A stretch of DNA of 64,000 bases. It comes from Acidobacteria bacterium RIFCSPLOWO2_12_FULL_68_19. Its GTDB lineage: Bacteria > Acidobacteriota > Vicinamibacteria > Vicinamibacterales > UBA2999. Below, in pieces: positions 1 to 7,963 of the stretch. The stretch lies in assembly GCA_001767525.1 (NCBI GenBank), contig MELF01000036.1:1-64000 (forward strand), written 5' to 3'. Both the position numbers and the translations under genes were made by a program. The first letter of the stretch is position 1. Each line of letters starts with the position of its first letter. The notes below the pieces were generated by a model. It did not search any database and was not told where the DNA came from. It saw only the letters and a list, made by a program, of their open reading frames with translations.

Positions 1-690
1 GACGACGCGCAGGCGCCCGGTGCCGATGCCGGCCCGCTGCACGAACTCGGAGAGCTGCTGGTAGATGCCGAGACGCGGGTCCTTCAGGTTGATCGAGTCG
101 ATCGGATGCACCGACATCGGCACTTCGATCTCGGTGGCGGCGACGATGCGCTCGTTGTGGAAGCCGATGACGCGCGTCAGCCGCCGGCGCGGCCGGCCCT
201 CGACCACGCCGTCGAGATCCACGAAGAAGACCGATTCGCCGGGGCGATTCGGATGGGTGACGCAGGCGCGCAGGCCGCCGGCGATGAAGGCCAGATGCGA
301 GTCGGCGTTGCGCGGCTCGGAGGCGCGCTGCATCGGGTCGAGATCGTGGCGGCGTTCCAGATGGTCGTGCTCGTAGCCGGCGCCTTCCGGAAACAGCGCG
401 CGAAACGTCTCTACGTAGTCGGGGACGCGCTCGGGGCTCAGGCGGATCGCGAGGCTGCGATCGAGAAAGCCCGCCGTGGTATGCGACGACCAGTAGAGAC
501 AGCGCGGATACGCGGCGAATGCCTCGTGCGCCGCGGCGCAGTGGGAGCGCAATTCGAGAACGTCGAATCGCGCTCTCGGGACGAGCTCAAGCGTGACGTC
601 GAGCGGCCGCGAGGCCGCGAGTCGCTGATAGGACACGCGGGAATTAGGGCAGGTGCCACCATGCGGGCCTGCCGCACAACAGGGTAACAC
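1..690 (-). CDS. YjbQ/UPF0047-like protein, 3' end beyond the window
   Basis: An open minus-strand frame runs without a stop to the left edge, so the C-terminus is missing. The middle contains SSHTTAGF followed by NADSHLAFIAGGL and a stretch reading VFFVDLDGVVEGRPRRR. These resemble the HTTAG, N-(G/A)-(D/H)-(S/A)-H and terminal FDGPR blocks of the YjbQ/UPF0047 family, whose biochemical role is unclear (a weak thiamine-phosphate synthase activity has been described). YjbQ proteins are usually about 140 residues and end near the DG-R block; here at least 60 further residues follow, so this is an extended version or another domain is attached. The frame opens at a GTG at 690 with a second GTG at 636; neither has a clear ribosome site. 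It is divergent from the TamB fusion gene, with only 18 bases between the outer GTG and the neighbour's ATG. Confidence 0.55.
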   Translation of the reverse strand, partial: MLPCCAAGPHGGTCPNSRVSYQRLAASRPLDVTLELVPRARFDVLELRSHCAAAHEAFAAYPRCLYWSSHTTAGFLDRSLAIRLSPERVPDYVETFRALFPEGAGYEHDHLERRHDLDPMQRASEPRNADSHLAFIAGGLRACVTHPNRPGESVFFVDLDGVVEGRPRRRLTRVIGFHNERIVAATEIEVPMSVHPIDSINLKDPRLGIYQQLSEFVQRAGIGTGRLRVV

Positions 691-708: not shown

Positions 709-3700
709 ATGAGCTTTCGGCGGCGACTGGCGGTGGTCGCCGCAGCCTTGGCCCTGGCCGGCGCGGCGTTCGTGCTGTTCGTGCACATCCCGCCGGTCCG
801 TCGCGCGGCGCTGCGGTACGTGCTGCCGGCCGTCGAGCGGCAGTACGGGCTGCGCCTCGAGGCATCTCGCCTCGACTACAACCTGGCCGCGCTGCGGGTG
901 GGGCTCGCCGATTTTCGTCTCTCCGCTCCCGAGAGCCCCGACGAGCCGTTCTTCTCTGCCGAGTACGTGTCGGTGACGCTCGCGCGTCGCGCGCTGGTCG
1001 GGCCGATCGCCTTCGAACACATCGGCCTCACCAACGCGCGCGTGCTCGTACGGAAGCGGCCCGATGGGACCACGAACATCCCGGCGGCGTCGAACACGCC
1101 CGGCGGCGAGCCGGCGCCGCTCTCGGTCGCCACTCTCGACGCCCCCCGGATCGCCATCGATCTTCGGGATGAGGAAGCCGCGAGGTTTCTCTGGGCGCCG
1201 GCCCTCGCGGTCCATTTGACGCCCGGCGGCGGATCCATCCGCCTGACGCGGCCTGCCGAGCTGAACACCGAAACGCAATTGACGAGCATCTCCAGCCTGG
1301 AGGGGGAGGCCGCCTTCGACGGCCGCGCGCTGCGCCTCGCGAGTCTCCGGCTGCAGTCGCCGGAGCTCTCCGCGCAGCTCGATGGGTCGGTGACGATCCT
1401 CGCCGGCGAACCGGCCGTCAACCTCACCGTGCGCGGAACGGGCGAGGCGGCACGCCTCGCGCGCTGGGTGGTGACGAATGGATTCCTGCCGCGGGGCGAG
1501 TTCGCCTTCGAGGCCGAGATCGGCGGTCCGTTCGCCGAACTCGAGATGCGGCTTCGCGTGTCGAGCCCGCGGATCGCATGGCGCAGTCTGGCGGCCGCCG
1601 ATCTTGCGGTGCGCCTGCGCGCCACCCCGGCGGCTGCCGACATCGAAGAGGCGCAGCTCGGGTTCGAAGGAGGGCGGGTGTCGGCGTCTGCGCGGGTGCC
1701 GTTCGAGCAGGAAGGCGAGGGCCGTGTGGAGGTCTCGTGGAGTGGCGTGAACGCGGCGTCGGCGGCGCTGGCGATCGCGCCGGACGCGGGACTCGTGCCG
1801 TCCGCGACCCTCTCGGGAACGCTTACGGCACGGGGCGGGGGAACCGACCCGGCGCGGTGGACCGGCACGTTGCGGGCGTTCGCGGTGGGCCGGCCGAACG
1901 CCCGCGGCCGCCTAGCGCTCGATGGTGATCTCGAGCTGCAGCTGCGCGATGACAGCTGGCAGCTCGCCGGCCGGCAGCGCGTCGGCGGCGTCGCGCCTCT
2001 GACCTTCGCGCTGCGCGGTCGAGGCACATCGAATGCTGCGCCTGCCGACACCCCGATTGACGGCACCGTCCGCCTGGCGGCCACCGACATTCCGGCGCTC
2101 GTGCGCGTGTTGGATGCCACCGGTCTTGCCGACCTCGAAGCGGATGTCGTCACGGCCGGGCAGCTCGACGCCGACCTTCGTGTCGGTGGCTCGATCGCTC
2201 GTCCGTCGCTCGAGGGTGTCGCGTCGATCCAGGGGCTGGCGGCGGCGCAGATGGAGGTGAGCGCGCTTCACGCCGCCGTTAGGGGCCAGCCGCGGCAGCT
2301 GGCGCTCAGCTTTGCCGTCGATGTGCCGGAGGCTATCGTGGCCGGGCAAGCGGTGACCGGCGTACGGGCGGCGGGCCGCGTCACCGAGGCCGGACTCGAC
2401 CTCGAGGCATTGACGGCGCGCCAGGCGTCCGGGCCGGGGACGTTGGCGGCGGACGGCGCCTACAGCTTCCGCACGCGCCGGTACGTCGTGTCGGTCGAGG
2501 GGCAGCAGTGGCAACTGGCGCCCGTGCCCGAGCGGCCGGTCGGTGCTCAGGTGGAGCTGCGGTTTGCCGGTGAAGGGAGCATCGACGCGCCGCGGGGCCT
2601 CGGCGACGTGACGCTGCGGCAGACGACGTGGCGCGATGTCGCGGTCGGCACCGTCACGGCGTCGGTGGCGCTCGAGGGACGGACAGCGGCGCTCGAAGCG
2701 GCGGCGCCCGAGTTCGCCGCCCGCGCCACCGCGCGCGTGCAGCTCGACCCGCCCTACGCGGCGGTCGTCGATGCCCGCGCGGAGGGGCTGGATCTCGCGC
2801 GGATCCTTCGAGACATCGGGAGCGCGACGCCGGGTGGGACGTCTCTGTCGGGCACCACCACCTTCGTCGCCCACGCGGAGCTGCCGCTGGAGACGTGGCG
2901 GAGCGGGTCGGCCACGCTGGAGATCGCGTCGCTGGAGGCGCGGGCGGGCGAGCTGCCCCTGCGGCTCGTCGAGCCCGCGCGTGCGCGCTACGAGGGCGAG
3001 CGCCTCTACATCGAGCGCTTCGAGGCCGCGGCCGGCGACACGCGGCTCTCCGCGTCGGGCGATCTGGCCGTGTTCGATGCTCCACCCGACTCCTCGGGAA
3101 TCGTCGTGACCGCCACCGGCGAGGTCGAGGAAGTCGCGCGCGCCGCGGCGGCGACGAAACTCATAGACGTGCCGGTCACCGGCGGCAGCGGTCCGGTGGC
3201 GCTGCTCGCACGGATCACCGGCACGGTGCAGGCGCCGGTCGTTGCGGCCGATCTCGAGGTCGGTCCGGGCAGCGTCGCGCTCGAGAACCTGCCGGCGATC
3301 TCACGCGTGCGCGTGCGGGCCCATGCGGAAGACGGCTGGGTCGAGCTGCGCGAGGGGATGGCCTCCTATCAGAACGCGGATCTGTCGGTCACCGGTCGGG
3401 CGCCGGTGTCGCTGTTTACGAATGGGGCCGAACCGTCCGGCGAGGCGGTGATCCGCGCGCGCGCCGCGAACCTCACGCCGGCCGTGCTCGCTCCGTTTCT
3501 CGAGCCGGACACCCTGGCCCAGATCGAGGGGTCGATCGACGCGACGCTCGAGGCGGCCGCGCCGTCGCTCGATCTCACCGCGCTGACGGGCGAGCTCCGG
3601 ATCGATCGGTTCGATGTGCGGATTGCCGATCTCCCCGTCACGCAGCGCGTGCCCACCCGCATCGTGGCGCGCGACGGCTTCGCGCGGGTGGAGGCGTGGG

Positions 3701-6700
3701 ACTGGGCCGGGCAGGGGGCCACGCTGAGCGTGCGCGGACAGGTGCGGCTCGAGGACCGCCAGGCCGCGATCCTGGCGGACGGTGTCGTGGATCTGCGCGT
3801 GCTGACGCCGTTTGTCCGCGACGCGGGCATCACCACCGCCGGCCGGTTGGAGCCGCGGCTGTCGATCACGGGCGCCCTCGACACCCCGCGCATCGACGGC
3901 GATCTCGTCGTGAGCGACGGCGAGATCCGGCTCGTCGATCCACGCGTGTTCGTGTCGGATCTCGCCGTGCGTACGGTGCTGACGCGGACGAGCGCCCGCA
4001 TCATGTCGCTCACGGGGGCGGTGAACGGCGGGGCGCTCACCGGCGGCGGCGCGCTCGACGTCGATGCGGCCGAGGGGGTGAGCGGGCAGTTGTCGGCCAG
4101 CGTTCGCGGTGTCGCCCTCGAGTTCCCACAGGGACTGCGCAGCGAGCTCGACGCCGACCTGACCCTCGACGTCGCCCCGTCGGCGGAGCGCCTCTCTGGG
4201 GTTGTGACCGTCGTTCGCAGCTCGTACCGGGAGCCGATGGCGGTCGTCACCGGGCTGCTGGCGGGCCTGCGCGGCGAGCGGATTGCCGCTGTGACAGGAT
4301 ACTCGCCGCTCGCCGAGCGTCTCGCCCTCGACGTGCGCGTCGTGACCGAGGAGGACGTCACCGTCGACAACAACTACGCCCGGGCGCAGCTCGGCGGCGA
4401 CCTGCGCGTGATCGGCACCGCCGCGGCGCCGGGAGTGTCGGGGCGCGCGGAGCTGCGCGAGGGTGGACAGCTCTTCGTCGGCCGCAACGTCTACACCGTC
4501 AATGTTGGAGCGATCGACTTCGCCAATCCGGTGGCGATCGAGCCGAATCTGAACGTCGAAGCGGTGACCCGCGCCGGGGGCGAGGAGATCGAGGTCACGA
4601 TCACCGGACCGGCGGAAAGTCCCGCCGTAAACCTCCGGTCGCCGTCAAACCCCGATCTCGGGCAGGCGGAGCTCGCGTCGCTGCTGCTGACCGGACGCCG
4701 GCTCGAGGACCTGGCCCCCGGTGATGCCGCGTTCGTCGGCACCCAGGTGCTCGGGAACTTCTCGGCGGAGGTGCTCGGATTTGCGAGCCGCGCCGTCGGC
4801 CTCGACACGCTCCGGCTGGGCGGTGTCGAATCGACCACGGTGCGGCGCGACCCGACGGTCGTCGCCACCGATCTGGATCCGACCACGAGGCTGACGTTCG
4901 GCAAGAGCCTCGGCACCGACCTCGACGTGACGTTCTCGCAAAGCCTCCGCGACGGCGACGCGCAGACCTGGATTGTCGACTATCTTCCGGCACGGGGACT
5001 GGATCTCAGGCTCGTGTCCGACGACGACGACCTGCGGTCGTACGGGTTCCGGCACGATGTGTCGATCGGGACGGGCGGACGGCGGCCCGCCGCGGCGGGA
5101 TCGGCGCGGCAGAGACGGGAGCTCCGCGTCGTGGCCGTCAATCTGACCGGCAACCTCGTGCTGCCCGAGGCGCGCGTCCGCGACGCCTTGCAGCTCGGGC
5201 CCGGCGACCGCTTCGACTTCGGCCGGTGGCAGACCGATCGCGACCGGCTCGAACGGCTCTACCGGATGCAGGGATACCTGACGGCCCGCGTCGTCGCCCG
5301 CCGCAGCGACGAGGGAGGCGGCGTGGCGCTGACCTACGAAATCGCGCCGGGCCCGCAGACGCGCATCGACGTGACCGGCCTGACCGTCGATGCAGCGCTT
5401 CGGTCGCAGCTCGAGACCGCCTGGGCCGAGGCGGTGTTCGACGACTTCGTGGTGGACGAGGCGGCCGGGATCGTGCGGCGCCGTCTCGCGGCCGACGGGC
5501 ATCTGCAGCCGGCGATCGATGCCAGGATCGCCGAAGCGGGGGGCGCGAAGACGCTCGTTGTCACGGTCGATCCCGGGTCGCGCAGCACGGCCACCCTCGT
5601 GCGGATCGAAGGTGTGCCGGACGATCTGGCCGGGGAGATCCTCGCGCATCTCCGGGAACGCGGGCTGCTTGAGGGTGCCGTCGCCGATCCCGTCGCCGTG
5701 GAGCGCGAGGTCGAGACGTACCTTCGCGGGCGCGGGCGCGTCGGCGCGCGCGTCAGCGCGGGCGCGCCACTGTTCGAGGCGACGACCGCCATTCTGCCGG
5801 TGGTCGTCGAGGCCGGTCCGGCGCATACGATCGCCCTTGTCCGGTTCGACGAGGCGCTCACGCTGCCGGAAGCGGGCCTGCGTGAGGCGGCCGCCCTGGA
5901 GGCGGGCGCGCCGTTCGACCCCGGCGCGGTGGAGGCGGCCCGCGACCGCCTGGTCTCGCTGTACCGCCGCGAAGGGTTTGCGTCGGTCTCCGTGGCCGCA
6001 CAGCCGGCCGTCCGGACCGAACAAGCGGCCGTCGATGTGGTGTTTCGCATCGAGGAAGGGCGCCGGCAGGTGCTGGGCGACGTCATGGTTGCCGGCAACC
6101 GCGCGATCGATGCCGACGTGATTGTGCGGGCGGTCGGACTCGCTCCCGGTGCGCCGCTCCGGGCGGAAGACGTCCTGCGGGCGCGCACGCGGGTGTTCGA
6201 TACCGGGCTGTTCCGCCGGATCGACGTGACGTCGGAGCCGCTCGAGTCGCCTGCCTCTGACGCGGGCACAATCCCGATGCGCCTCCGCGTCAGCGTGGAG
6301 GAGTGGCCGGCCGCACGGCTCCGCTACGGCTTCGTCGCGGCGGAAGAGCGGCCCGAAGACAGCCTCGAGGGGCGCAAGCTCGTACCGGGCGTGTCGGCCG
6401 ATGTGACCCGCCGCACGCTCTTCGGCCGGGCGATCGTGGTCGGCGGCGCAGCCGAGTGGCAGCGGCGCGAGCAGCGGGGGCGGGCTTTCCTGAACGCCCC
6501 CACGTTCATGGGGCTGCCGCTCGAGTCGTCTCTGATTGCGGAGCGGTCGCGGGAGCAGTTCGAGGCGGTGACGCTCGTCACGAACCGGACCAGCGTGACG
6601 TGGGAGCAGCGGACGCGGGTGGCGCGGAACCTGAGCCTCTCGTACGCCTACACGTTCGAGCGGAATCATACGTTCGATACCCGCACCTTCGACCCCGACG

Positions 6701-7314
6701 CGCTGGCGTTCGACATCACGATCAACATCGCCCGGCTGAACGCCGCCGCGGCGTGGGACACGCGGGACGATCCGTCCGACACGACGCGCGGCCTGCTCGC
6801 CTCCTCCAGCTTCGAGCTGGCGCCCGAAGCGATTGGCTCCGATATCCGGTTCCTCCGGCAACTGTGGCAGGGCTATTTCTTCCAGCCGTGGCGCGGCGTC
6901 GTGCTGGCGTCGGCCGCGCGCGCCGGGGTGGTCGTGCCGCTCGGCGGCCAGGAGCTCATCCTGTCCGAGCGCTTCTTCGCCGGCGGGTCCCGAACCGTTC
7001 GCGGCATGGCGGAGGGGGGGCTCGGCCCGCGGGATTTCTTCGGCGACCCGGCCGGCGGCCGGATGATGGTCGTGCTGAACCAGGAGGCCCGCGTGCCGAT
7101 CCACCGCTGGCTGCGTGGCGTGGCGTTCGTCGACGCGGGCAACGTGTTCCTACGGCCGGGCGACGCCAGTCTGGCCGATCTGGTTGGGTCAGCAGGCGCC
7201 GGCCTGCGGCTGGTGACGCCCTTCGCGCTGCTGCGCGCCGACTACGCCCGGGCGATGTGGGGCGCCACGCACAAGGGCGGGCGCTGGACGTTCGGGATCG
7301 GACAGACGTTTTGA
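709..7314 (+). CDS. TamB-Omp85 fusion: translocation/assembly module in one chain
   Basis: The 2201-residue protein starts with a membrane anchor (about residues 7-27, RRRLAVVAAALALAGAAFVL) and an AsmA/TamB-like N-terminus. A long, repetitive beta-rich TamB body follows, ending in the conserved DUF490 C-terminal region at about 1240-1465 (features include SNPDLGQAELASLLLTGR). Five POTRA-like repeats occupy about 1467-1868, and an Omp85 barrel about 1869-2201. The barrel carries GGSRTVRGM near 2092-2100, matching the VRG(F/Y) L6 motif, and ends in phenylalanine. TamA (POTRA plus barrel) and TamB normally are separate, often adjacent genes that together help assemble or move material to the outer membrane. 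Here one frame encodes both, with no internal stop or frameshift, so the chain would span inner membrane, periplasm and outer membrane. Function is inferred from the parts. Confidence 0.85.
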   Translation: MSFRRRLAVVAAALALAGAAFVLFVHIPPVRRAALRYVLPAVERQYGLRLEASRLDYNLAALRVGLADFRLSAPESPDEPFFSAEYVSVTLARRALVGPIAFEHIGLTNARVLVRKRPDGTTNIPAASNTPGGEPAPLSVATLDAPRIAIDLRDEEAARFLWAPALAVHLTPGGGSIRLTRPAELNTETQLTSISSLEGEAAFDGRALRLASLRLQSPELSAQLDGSVTILAGEPAVNLTVRGTGEAARLARWVVTNGFLPRGEFAFEAEIGGPFAELEMRLRVSSPRIAWRSLAAADLAVRLRATPAAADIEEAQLGFEGGRVSASARVPFEQEGEGRVEVSWSGVNAASAALAIAPDAGLVPSATLSGTLTARGGGTDPARWTGTLRAFAVGRPNARGRLALDGDLELQLRDDSWQLAGRQRVGGVAPLTFALRGRGTSNAAPADTPIDGTVRLAATDIPALVRVLDATGLADLEADVVTAGQLDADLRVGGSIARPSLEGVASIQGLAAAQMEVSALHAAVRGQPRQLALSFAVDVPEAIVAGQAVTGVRAAGRVTEAGLDLEALTARQASGPGTLAADGAYSFRTRRYVVSVEGQQWQLAPVPERPVGAQVELRFAGEGSIDAPRGLGDVTLRQTTWRDVAVGTVTASVALEGRTAALEAAAPEFAARATARVQLDPPYAAVVDARAEGLDLARILRDIGSATPGGTSLSGTTTFVAHAELPLETWRSGSATLEIASLEARAGELPLRLVEPARARYEGERLYIERFEAAAGDTRLSASGDLAVFDAPPDSSGIVVTATGEVEEVARAAAATKLIDVPVTGGSGPVALLARITGTVQAPVVAADLEVGPGSVALENLPAISRVRVRAHAEDGWVELREGMASYQNADLSVTGRAPVSLFTNGAEPSGEAVIRARAANLTPAVLAPFLEPDTLAQIEGSIDATLEAAAPSLDLTALTGELRIDRFDVRIADLPVTQRVPTRIVARDGFARVEAWDWAGQGATLSVRGQVRLEDRQAAILADGVVDLRVLTPFVRDAGITTAGRLEPRLSITGALDTPRIDGDLVVSDGEIRLVDPRVFVSDLAVRTVLTRTSARIMSLTGAVNGGALTGGGALDVDAAEGVSGQLSASVRGVALEFPQGLRSELDADLTLDVAPSAERLSGVVTVVRSSYREPMAVVTGLLAGLRGERIAAVTGYSPLAERLALDVRVVTEEDVTVDNNYARAQLGGDLRVIGTAAAPGVSGRAELREGGQLFVGRNVYTVNVGAIDFANPVAIEPNLNVEAVTRAGGEEIEVTITGPAESPAVNLRSPSNPDLGQAELASLLLTGRRLEDLAPGDAAFVGTQVLGNFSAEVLGFASRAVGLDTLRLGGVESTTVRRDPTVVATDLDPTTRLTFGKSLGTDLDVTFSQSLRDGDAQTWIVDYLPARGLDLRLVSDDDDLRSYGFRHDVSIGTGGRRPAAAGSARQRRELRVVAVNLTGNLVLPEARVRDALQLGPGDRFDFGRWQTDRDRLERLYRMQGYLTARVVARRSDEGGGVALTYEIAPGPQTRIDVTGLTVDAALRSQLETAWAEAVFDDFVVDEAAGIVRRRLAADGHLQPAIDARIAEAGGAKTLVVTVDPGSRSTATLVRIEGVPDDLAGEILAHLRERGLLEGAVADPVAVEREVETYLRGRGRVGARVSAGAPLFEATTAILPVVVEAGPAHTIALVRFDEALTLPEAGLREAAALEAGAPFDPGAVEAARDRLVSLYRREGFASVSVAAQPAVRTEQAAVDVVFRIEEGRRQVLGDVMVAGNRAIDADVIVRAVGLAPGAPLRAEDVLRARTRVFDTGLFRRIDVTSEPLESPASDAGTIPMRLRVSVEEWPAARLRYGFVAAEERPEDSLEGRKLVPGVSADVTRRTLFGRAIVVGGAAEWQRREQRGRAFLNAPTFMGLPLESSLIAERSREQFEAVTLVTNRTSVTWEQRTRVARNLSLSYAYTFERNHTFDTRTFDPDALAFDITINIARLNAAAAWDTRDDPSDTTRGLLASSSFELAPEAIGSDIRFLRQLWQGYFFQPWRGVVLASAARAGVVVPLGGQELILSERFFAGGSRTVRGMAEGGLGPRDFFGDPAGGRMMVVLNQEARVPIHRWLRGVAFVDAGNVFLRPGDASLADLVGSAGAGLRLVTPFALLRADYARAMWGATHKGGRWTFGIGQTF

Positions 7315-7372: not shown

Positions 7373-7963
7373 CTACCTCCCGCGCACCGTTCGCATGATC
7401 TGCAGCACCTCGGGCCGTTCCGGCGCCTCCGGCGCCAGTTTGAGGAACTGCTCGAAGTGGATCGCCATGCGGTCGGGCCGTCCGGCGCGGTAGTGCATCA
7501 ACCCGCCGTAGTAGTGCGCGTAGGCCGTGGCCGGGCTGAGCTCCGCCGCGCGATCGAACGCCTCGGCAGCCGCCCGCCACTCTTCGCGCCTGGCGTGCAC
7601 GAGCCCCATCTGGTAGTGGGCGTCGGCCAGCCGTGGCCCGAGCGCCACCGCCTGCTGCGCCGACTCCAGCGCCGCGGCCGTCTGGTCGTCGAGCAACTGC
7701 TGCCCGGAGAGGCCGATGAAATGCCACGGGTCGTCCTCGCCGCGCGTCGCCAGCTGCGCGTAGGCGGCGCGTGCCTCGCCCGCGGCGCCGAGCTTCTGGT
7801 GGCTCTGGGCGGCCGTGTAGACCACGGCCGGGGCCGCGGCATCGCCGGCGCTGTCGACGACCTGCTGGAACCGCCCCGCCTCGAACATCCGGCGGACCTC
7901 CGCGGCGTCCTGCGCCCAGGCAATCGCCGGGGTCAAAAGAAGAGCAACAGCGAGGGTTCTCAT
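7373..7963 (-). CDS. Exported TPR protein
   Basis: The 196-residue protein starts at an ATG preceded by AGGAG eight bases upstream; a longer upstream reading without such a site was not used. A signal peptide (MRTLAVALLLTPAIAWAQD) points to the periplasm. The rest is tetratricopeptide-like helical repeats, including YQMGLVHARREEWRAAAEAF and YYGGLMHYRAGRPDRMAIHF, so it probably is a protein-interaction scaffold; no partner is evident. A TACAAT -10-like box lies about 30 bases upstream of the start (7992-7997 on this strand). It converges with the TamB fusion gene, with about 58 bases between their ends. Confidence 0.75.
   Translation of the reverse strand: MRTLAVALLLTPAIAWAQDAAEVRRMFEAGRFQQVVDSAGDAAAPAVVYTAAQSHQKLGAAGEARAAYAQLATRGEDDPWHFIGLSGQQLLDDQTAAALESAQQAVALGPRLADAHYQMGLVHARREEWRAAAEAFDRAAELSPATAYAHYYGGLMHYRAGRPDRMAIHFEQFLKLAPEAPERPEVLQIMRTVRGR

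Follow-up and report, generated by a model that had tools for sequence, protein, structure and literature searches.

The window analyzed here comprises the first 64,000 nucleotides of contig MELF01000036.1 of Acidobacteria bacterium RIFCSPLOWO2_12_FULL_68_19, and carries at positions 709-7314 of the forward strand a single frame of 2201 codons, free of internal stops, whose 2201-residue product combines TamB, POTRA and Omp85 regions. A first-pass annotation, made from the sequence alone, had described an uninterrupted chain of this composition, and both the reading frame and Pfam searches bear it out: in the full chain the TamB domain (PF04357, residues 1101-1438, positions 4009-5022, E = 2.5e-35), a POTRA match (E = 3.4e-31) and the Omp85 barrel (PF01103, residues 1904-2201, positions 6418-7311, E = 6.8e-40) all lie far above their cut-offs, so that both POTRA and Omp85 matches are found beyond the TamB region. 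The barrel ends in phenylalanine, as does each of the 67 examined fused frames whose barrel is complete, and contains the VRG motif named in that annotation (residues 2097-2099, positions 6997-7005), which reads TVRGM in the translation. The protein hence has the barrel domain, the VRG motif and at least one POTRA that characterize the Omp85 superfamily. At the opposite end a hydrophobic segment (residues 7-25, positions 727-783, mean hydropathy 2.72 over 19 residues) is a probable inner-membrane signal anchor, in line with the AsmA/TamB-type anchor proposed earlier. It lies in an AsmA-like N-terminal region (residues 4-157, positions 718-1179) recognized through weak DUF748 and AsmA matches below the Pfam cut-offs; DUF748 was detected in 14 of 21 aligned fused relatives.

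The five POTRA-like repeats of the first-pass annotation are all present in a predicted structure of residues 1290-1870, which resolves five beta-alpha-alpha-beta-beta units with the strand and helix order of POTRA domains, mostly at a predicted local distance difference test score (pLDDT) of 70-90, while a piecewise Pfam scan places three of them above the cut-off. These are POTRA 1 (residues 1473-1546, positions 5125-5346, E = 7.1e-13), POTRA 4 (residues 1707-1782, positions 5827-6054, E = 3.6e-11) and POTRA 5 (residues 1786-1865, positions 6064-6303, E = 1.6e-06); POTRA 2 (residues 1552-1621, positions 5362-5571) has a weak match (E = 0.16), and POTRA 3 (residues 1628-1701, positions 5590-5811) is missed by Pfam and defined by the model only. 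The best PDB matches of the modeled arm are BamA chains, and it aligns with BamA residues 24-422 with a Z score of 19.2 and a root mean square deviation of 12.2 over 369 aligned residues, the VIA-align rows for this comparison covering model residues 182-578 only. We take the high deviation to reflect uncertain inter-domain angles in the model.

Between the TamB domain and this arm lies the strand SYGFRHDVSIG (residues 1444-1454, positions 5038-5070), which corresponds to the C-terminal end of stand-alone TamB proteins, followed by an 18-residue linker (residues 1455-1472, positions 5071-5124; its end is set by the start of POTRA 1 in the model) that lacks a hydrophobic segment. A TamB protein is expected to be the product of a separate gene and to have a free C-terminus; here the frame runs on into the POTRAs and the barrel, and the outer-membrane-like terminal strand, though kept by sequence, is internal. 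A similar strand occurs in another fused relative (YEVRHDVSFGG in L046), as against the end YALDVRVRHAF of a separate TamB. Hydropathy at the junction peaks at 0.93 in the window protein; over 19-residue stretches it never exceeds 1.55 there in any of 44 fused proteins, 39 of which reach at least 1.78 near the N-terminus. As there is no hydrophobic stretch at the junction, an Omp85 protein translated from an internal start would lack a signal peptide and hence fail to be exported. The locus thus combines a junction without a signal peptide, a retained TamB-type terminal strand and a single frame under selection.

Such a frame could in principle arise from an assembly or sequencing error that masks a stop codon or a shift of frame around residue 1465, and in one related family, f84, the arrangement is one in which this might matter: there tamB and omp85 are separate yet share a frame, being set apart by a TGA and two codons (L077 4042-11115; L078 1099-8154), so that one base could decide between the two states, although nothing found in the window speaks for such an error. 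The f84 omp85 gene still starts with an apparent signal peptide, and its arrangement looks like a near-fused state, whereas the fused junctions have no signal peptide. As apparent open frames can also merge two neighboring genes (G113 C32, G402, G407), fused frames were checked on the DNA itself. Among 67 genomes examined in this way, 48 have the fused frame in full (50 frames of 1306-2539 residues, median 2222.5), including the one-contig genome G198; in 13 the fused gene is cut by the end of the locus, in 4 it is cut by a contig end before the barrel, and in 2 it is split. Sixteen further loci, picked for suspicious frames or spanning matches, yielded nine complete fused frames and one cut frame; another lacks a barrel, and the other five are two-gene pairs. 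Pfam detects Omp85 and TamB in 21/21 and POTRA in 20/21 aligned fused proteins. Comparison of the window gene with that of G102 gives a ratio of nonsynonymous to synonymous divergence (dN/dS) of 0.196/0.866 = 0.23 for the whole gene and 0.132/0.902, or about 0.15, for a block of 150 codons across the junction; part of the gene in a closer pair (G107/G109) gives 0.18. The junction codons are under purifying selection. In view of this selection, of the complete frames in 48 genomes and of fused junctions devoid of a signal peptide we rejected the artefact explanation, which has next to no probability.

The first-pass annotation had read the protein as a fusion of TamA and TamB, the two subunits of the translocation and assembly module (TAM), which as a rule are separate proteins that pair to bridge both membranes. 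Its single-chain TamB-Omp85 architecture, with anchor and barrel, holds, but its Omp85 half differs from a classical TamA, because it has a five-POTRA, BamA-like arm in place of the three POTRAs of TamA, and because it falls below the cut-offs of both relevant NCBIfam models (TamA, 69.7 bits against 625; BamA, 197.8 bits against 297.15). Five POTRAs with an Omp85 barrel are as found in BamA, but in a phylogenetic tree of the barrel the fused Omp85 proteins lie across a fully supported (100%) branch from the housekeeping BamA proteins.

This tree (88 of 99 rows) and one of the TamB region (74 of 89 rows) were built after removal of duplicate loci; 11 near-copies were left out, as were, from the TamB tree, four rows not placed in a class, and later trees were also trimmed of other named near-copies and of most BamA rows. 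The two trees agree in recovering a first fused group containing the window protein, a second fused group (families f38, f31, f54, f62, f68, f19, f57, f49 and f74) and two-gene tamB-omp85 operons, and in the barrel tree all fused groups and the operons together are separated from housekeeping BamA with support 100. The two main fused groups are drawn apart, and a third type of fusion, with about seven POTRAs, falls among or beside the two-gene operons. A single fused clade is not rejected by the approximately unbiased (AU) test, either on the TamB tree (p = 0.522) or on a joined TamB-barrel tree of 38 chosen rows that includes the seven-POTRA type (p = 0.303), and in the barrel tree the fused rows fall on one side with support 11. 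One, two, three or more fusions, or a fusion followed by splits, all stand as possible histories on these trees. We infer that fusion of neighboring genes is the simpler direction, because the fused junctions lack the signal peptide that a split-off Omp85 would need.

The fused architecture extends well beyond the window, as a look at related genomes establishes. All 43 genomes of its own family match the fused protein, though a match may be to separate genes. Of 297 sampled genomes of the phylum, 60 match the window protein at E 1e-60, two of them (G402 and G407) through split genes, and 205 match a profile of fused proteins at 1e-110, many through separate genes. By eye among the matches listed, a fused chain occurs in about 67 of the 297, a count made up of 65 genomes in which a single match starts before profile position 1300 and extends to position 1600 or further, plus three genomes of family f37 checked on DNA and minus G192, part of the rows overall being confirmed on DNA. 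G192 was left uncounted as its frame (L189 2789-8905) joins TamB and POTRAs with no barrel match. A search of plasmids returned partial TamA-like matches only, none of 21 records having one place that covers 80%.

The fused chains differ both in their POTRA arms and in the company they keep. The fusion is the only TamB in 19 of 20 second-group genomes examined (16/16 and 3/4; G308 has another, and G252 was assigned to the group by genus and not by the tree), and one first-group genome, G248, likewise has no other TamB. In family f37 all four genomes encode a fused chain (L181 2782-10068; L182 2196-9401; L183 2151-9353; L184 2479-9795) and no other TamB frame; the approximately 570 residues between TamB and barrel would leave room for about seven POTRAs. 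Conversely, G167 has a second fusion, an 1855-residue chain with one POTRA (L158 3204-8771), beside its five-POTRA fusion, and G153 has one of the same kind that is cut by a contig end (L159 3-3161). We give an about even chance to the broader proposal that these one-, five- and approximately seven-POTRA chains form a phylum-wide class of single-chain TAMs, which replaced the two-gene TAM in several families and forms its hybrid barrel in cis. A different gene order is seen in G088 (L167 3091-9360), where a third TAM, with a 632-residue Omp85 gene first and tamB second, exists beside an operon and a fusion.

For the window gene we favor, with reasonable though guarded confidence, a product that acts as a single-chain TAM, with the TamB tail docked in cis on the barrel of the same chain. 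The N-terminal anchor would fix the protein to the inner membrane, with the TamB groove crossing the periplasm and the C-terminal barrel lying in the outer membrane; such a chain would physically bridge the envelope and fix the TamB:Omp85 stoichiometry. Less certainly, the TamB terminal strand might pair with the first strand of that same barrel. Given the general topology of Omp85 proteins, antiparallel pairing with the first barrel strand would bring the end of the TamB strand to the periplasmic side of the barrel, from where the chain could enter POTRA 1 without a second membrane crossing, the linker leading back from the barrel rim to that domain. The likely work of the protein would be that of a TAM, namely help with outer-membrane protein insertion, passage of phospholipids along the TamB groove, or both.

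It is also conceivable that the whole chain is cut in the periplasm into TamB and Omp85 parts that form an ordinary two-part TAM, the fusion serving co-production. The linkers do vary in both sequence and length among relatives, which fits a cleavage site as well as a passive tether, and both halves are homologous to separate proteins. However, the junctions provide no hydrophobic segment for a signal-peptidase site, even the most hydrophobic reaching 1.55, and no conserved linker motif was apparent by eye across the fused relatives. We therefore regard cutting as unlikely.

Several observations weigh against a single-chain TAM docked in cis. A structure model of residues 1020-2201 is poor (mean pLDDT 33), the TamB tail has a pLDDT below 50 in the model of residues 1290-1870, and neither model shows docking in cis. 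In the frames as called, four complete second-group proteins (L069, L070, L074 and L075) lack a clear hydrophobic segment at the N-terminus, as does the cut protein L159. Finally, a separate TamB and Omp85 are retained in the genome of the window, which leaves room for a different job of the fused protein.

That genome (4.2 Mb in 52 contigs) has four Omp85 and two TamB matches. Contig C17 bears a separate tamB gene (1364 residues) followed by an omp85 gene, and contig C29 encodes a BamA-like protein of 882 residues; the search for a separate TamA or BamA elsewhere, suggested at first, turns up these two Omp85-type genes. As both are present, the fusion appears to be an additional TAM in this genome, a paralogue beside a two-gene TAM. 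The gene after the C17 pair reads as SurA-like, with a weak rotamase match. A fourth protein, of 1035 residues on contig C10 (L009 1181-4288), we take to be of protease/WD40 type, with apparent protease and WD40-type repeats ahead of a partial Omp85-type barrel.

Many other first-group genomes likewise carry both a BamA-like gene and a tamB-omp85 pair of separate genes, and this raises the possibility that the fused protein is a specialised paralogue, devoted to a special substrate or mainly to lipid transport with its barrel as a fixed outer-membrane dock, and not a general TAM. A gene convergent with the fused gene points the same way. At positions 7376-7963 of the reverse strand, tail to tail with it, is encoded a protein with TPR matches in Pfam that looks exported, its signal peptide being read by eye, and that is a possible partner of the fused protein. 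In a profile search a TPR protein lies within 1 kb of the fused gene in 20 of 39 first-group loci (the one-POTRA type counted), 19 of them convergent, versus none of 15 second-group loci. Retention of this position across families suggests a link with the fused protein, although a long-kept gene order would look alike. Set against specialization are the second group, family f37 and G248: wherever a genome has no other TamB, as in the second group and f37, the fused chain has to do all of TamB's work. A specialised role for the window protein is accordingly possible but doubtful, and a single-chain TAM remains our preferred reading.

No described system matches this arrangement in full. The proteobacterial TAM shares with it the TamB domain, the anchor, the Omp85 barrel and the TamB-type terminal strand, but is encoded by two genes with a three-POTRA TamA, whereas the window gene encodes one chain with five POTRAs. 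In Escherichia coli TamAB, TamB contributes its last strand, which pairs with the first one of the TamA barrel (PMC12800296). A BamA-TamB operon with a second BamA has been reported from Acidobacteria (Heinz 2015, PMC4494059); it probably concerns the same phylum and the same kinds of genes, but has two genes and an Omp85 protein with more POTRAs than the window fusion, and the words "fusion" and "fused" are absent from the text of that paper. The C17 pair is probably an operon of this type. In Borrelia burgdorferi the available text describes a hybrid of TAM and the barrel assembly machinery (BAM), in which a five-POTRA BamA works with TamB and TamB strands are modeled as completing the barrel (PMC13382580); a five-POTRA Omp85 is there too combined with TamB, but as separate chains, and the BamA is that of the cell's BAM. 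Omp85 proteins with additional N-terminal domains, WD40-like or patatin-like as in PlpD, appear in the consulted part of PMC4104836; these are Omp85 barrels fused to a partner domain, but the partner is not TamB. In the open-licence literature searched, no paper was found whose listing describes a TamB-TamA or TamB-BamA fusion, and exact phrases retrieved none, though some database may already record the fusion among its domain architectures.

Because one chain fixes both ratio and pairing, natural single-chain TAMs offer a ready test of what keeps TamB joined to its Omp85 partner, of whether the two must part during work, and of whether TamB carries lipid or helps insert proteins, the best cases being fused chains that are their genome's only TamB. 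For structural studies, keeping the complex intact is no longer a difficulty once the TAM is one covalent chain. More generally, a bridge spanning the envelope can be encoded as one polypeptide, and if a single-chain class docking in cis is borne out, a TAM could function with TamB remaining on its barrel partner throughout.

On its other side the fused gene is flanked by a divergent gene (positions 1-609, reverse strand) that is well conserved beside it in the family and has no Pfam match. A record named Acidobacteria (L011) shares both the fused gene (41%) and this upstream neighbor (69%). Another record, L010, is labeled in NCBI as Acidimicrobiia, Actinomycetota, yet is placed within the window's own family in our trees; this label is probably wrong.

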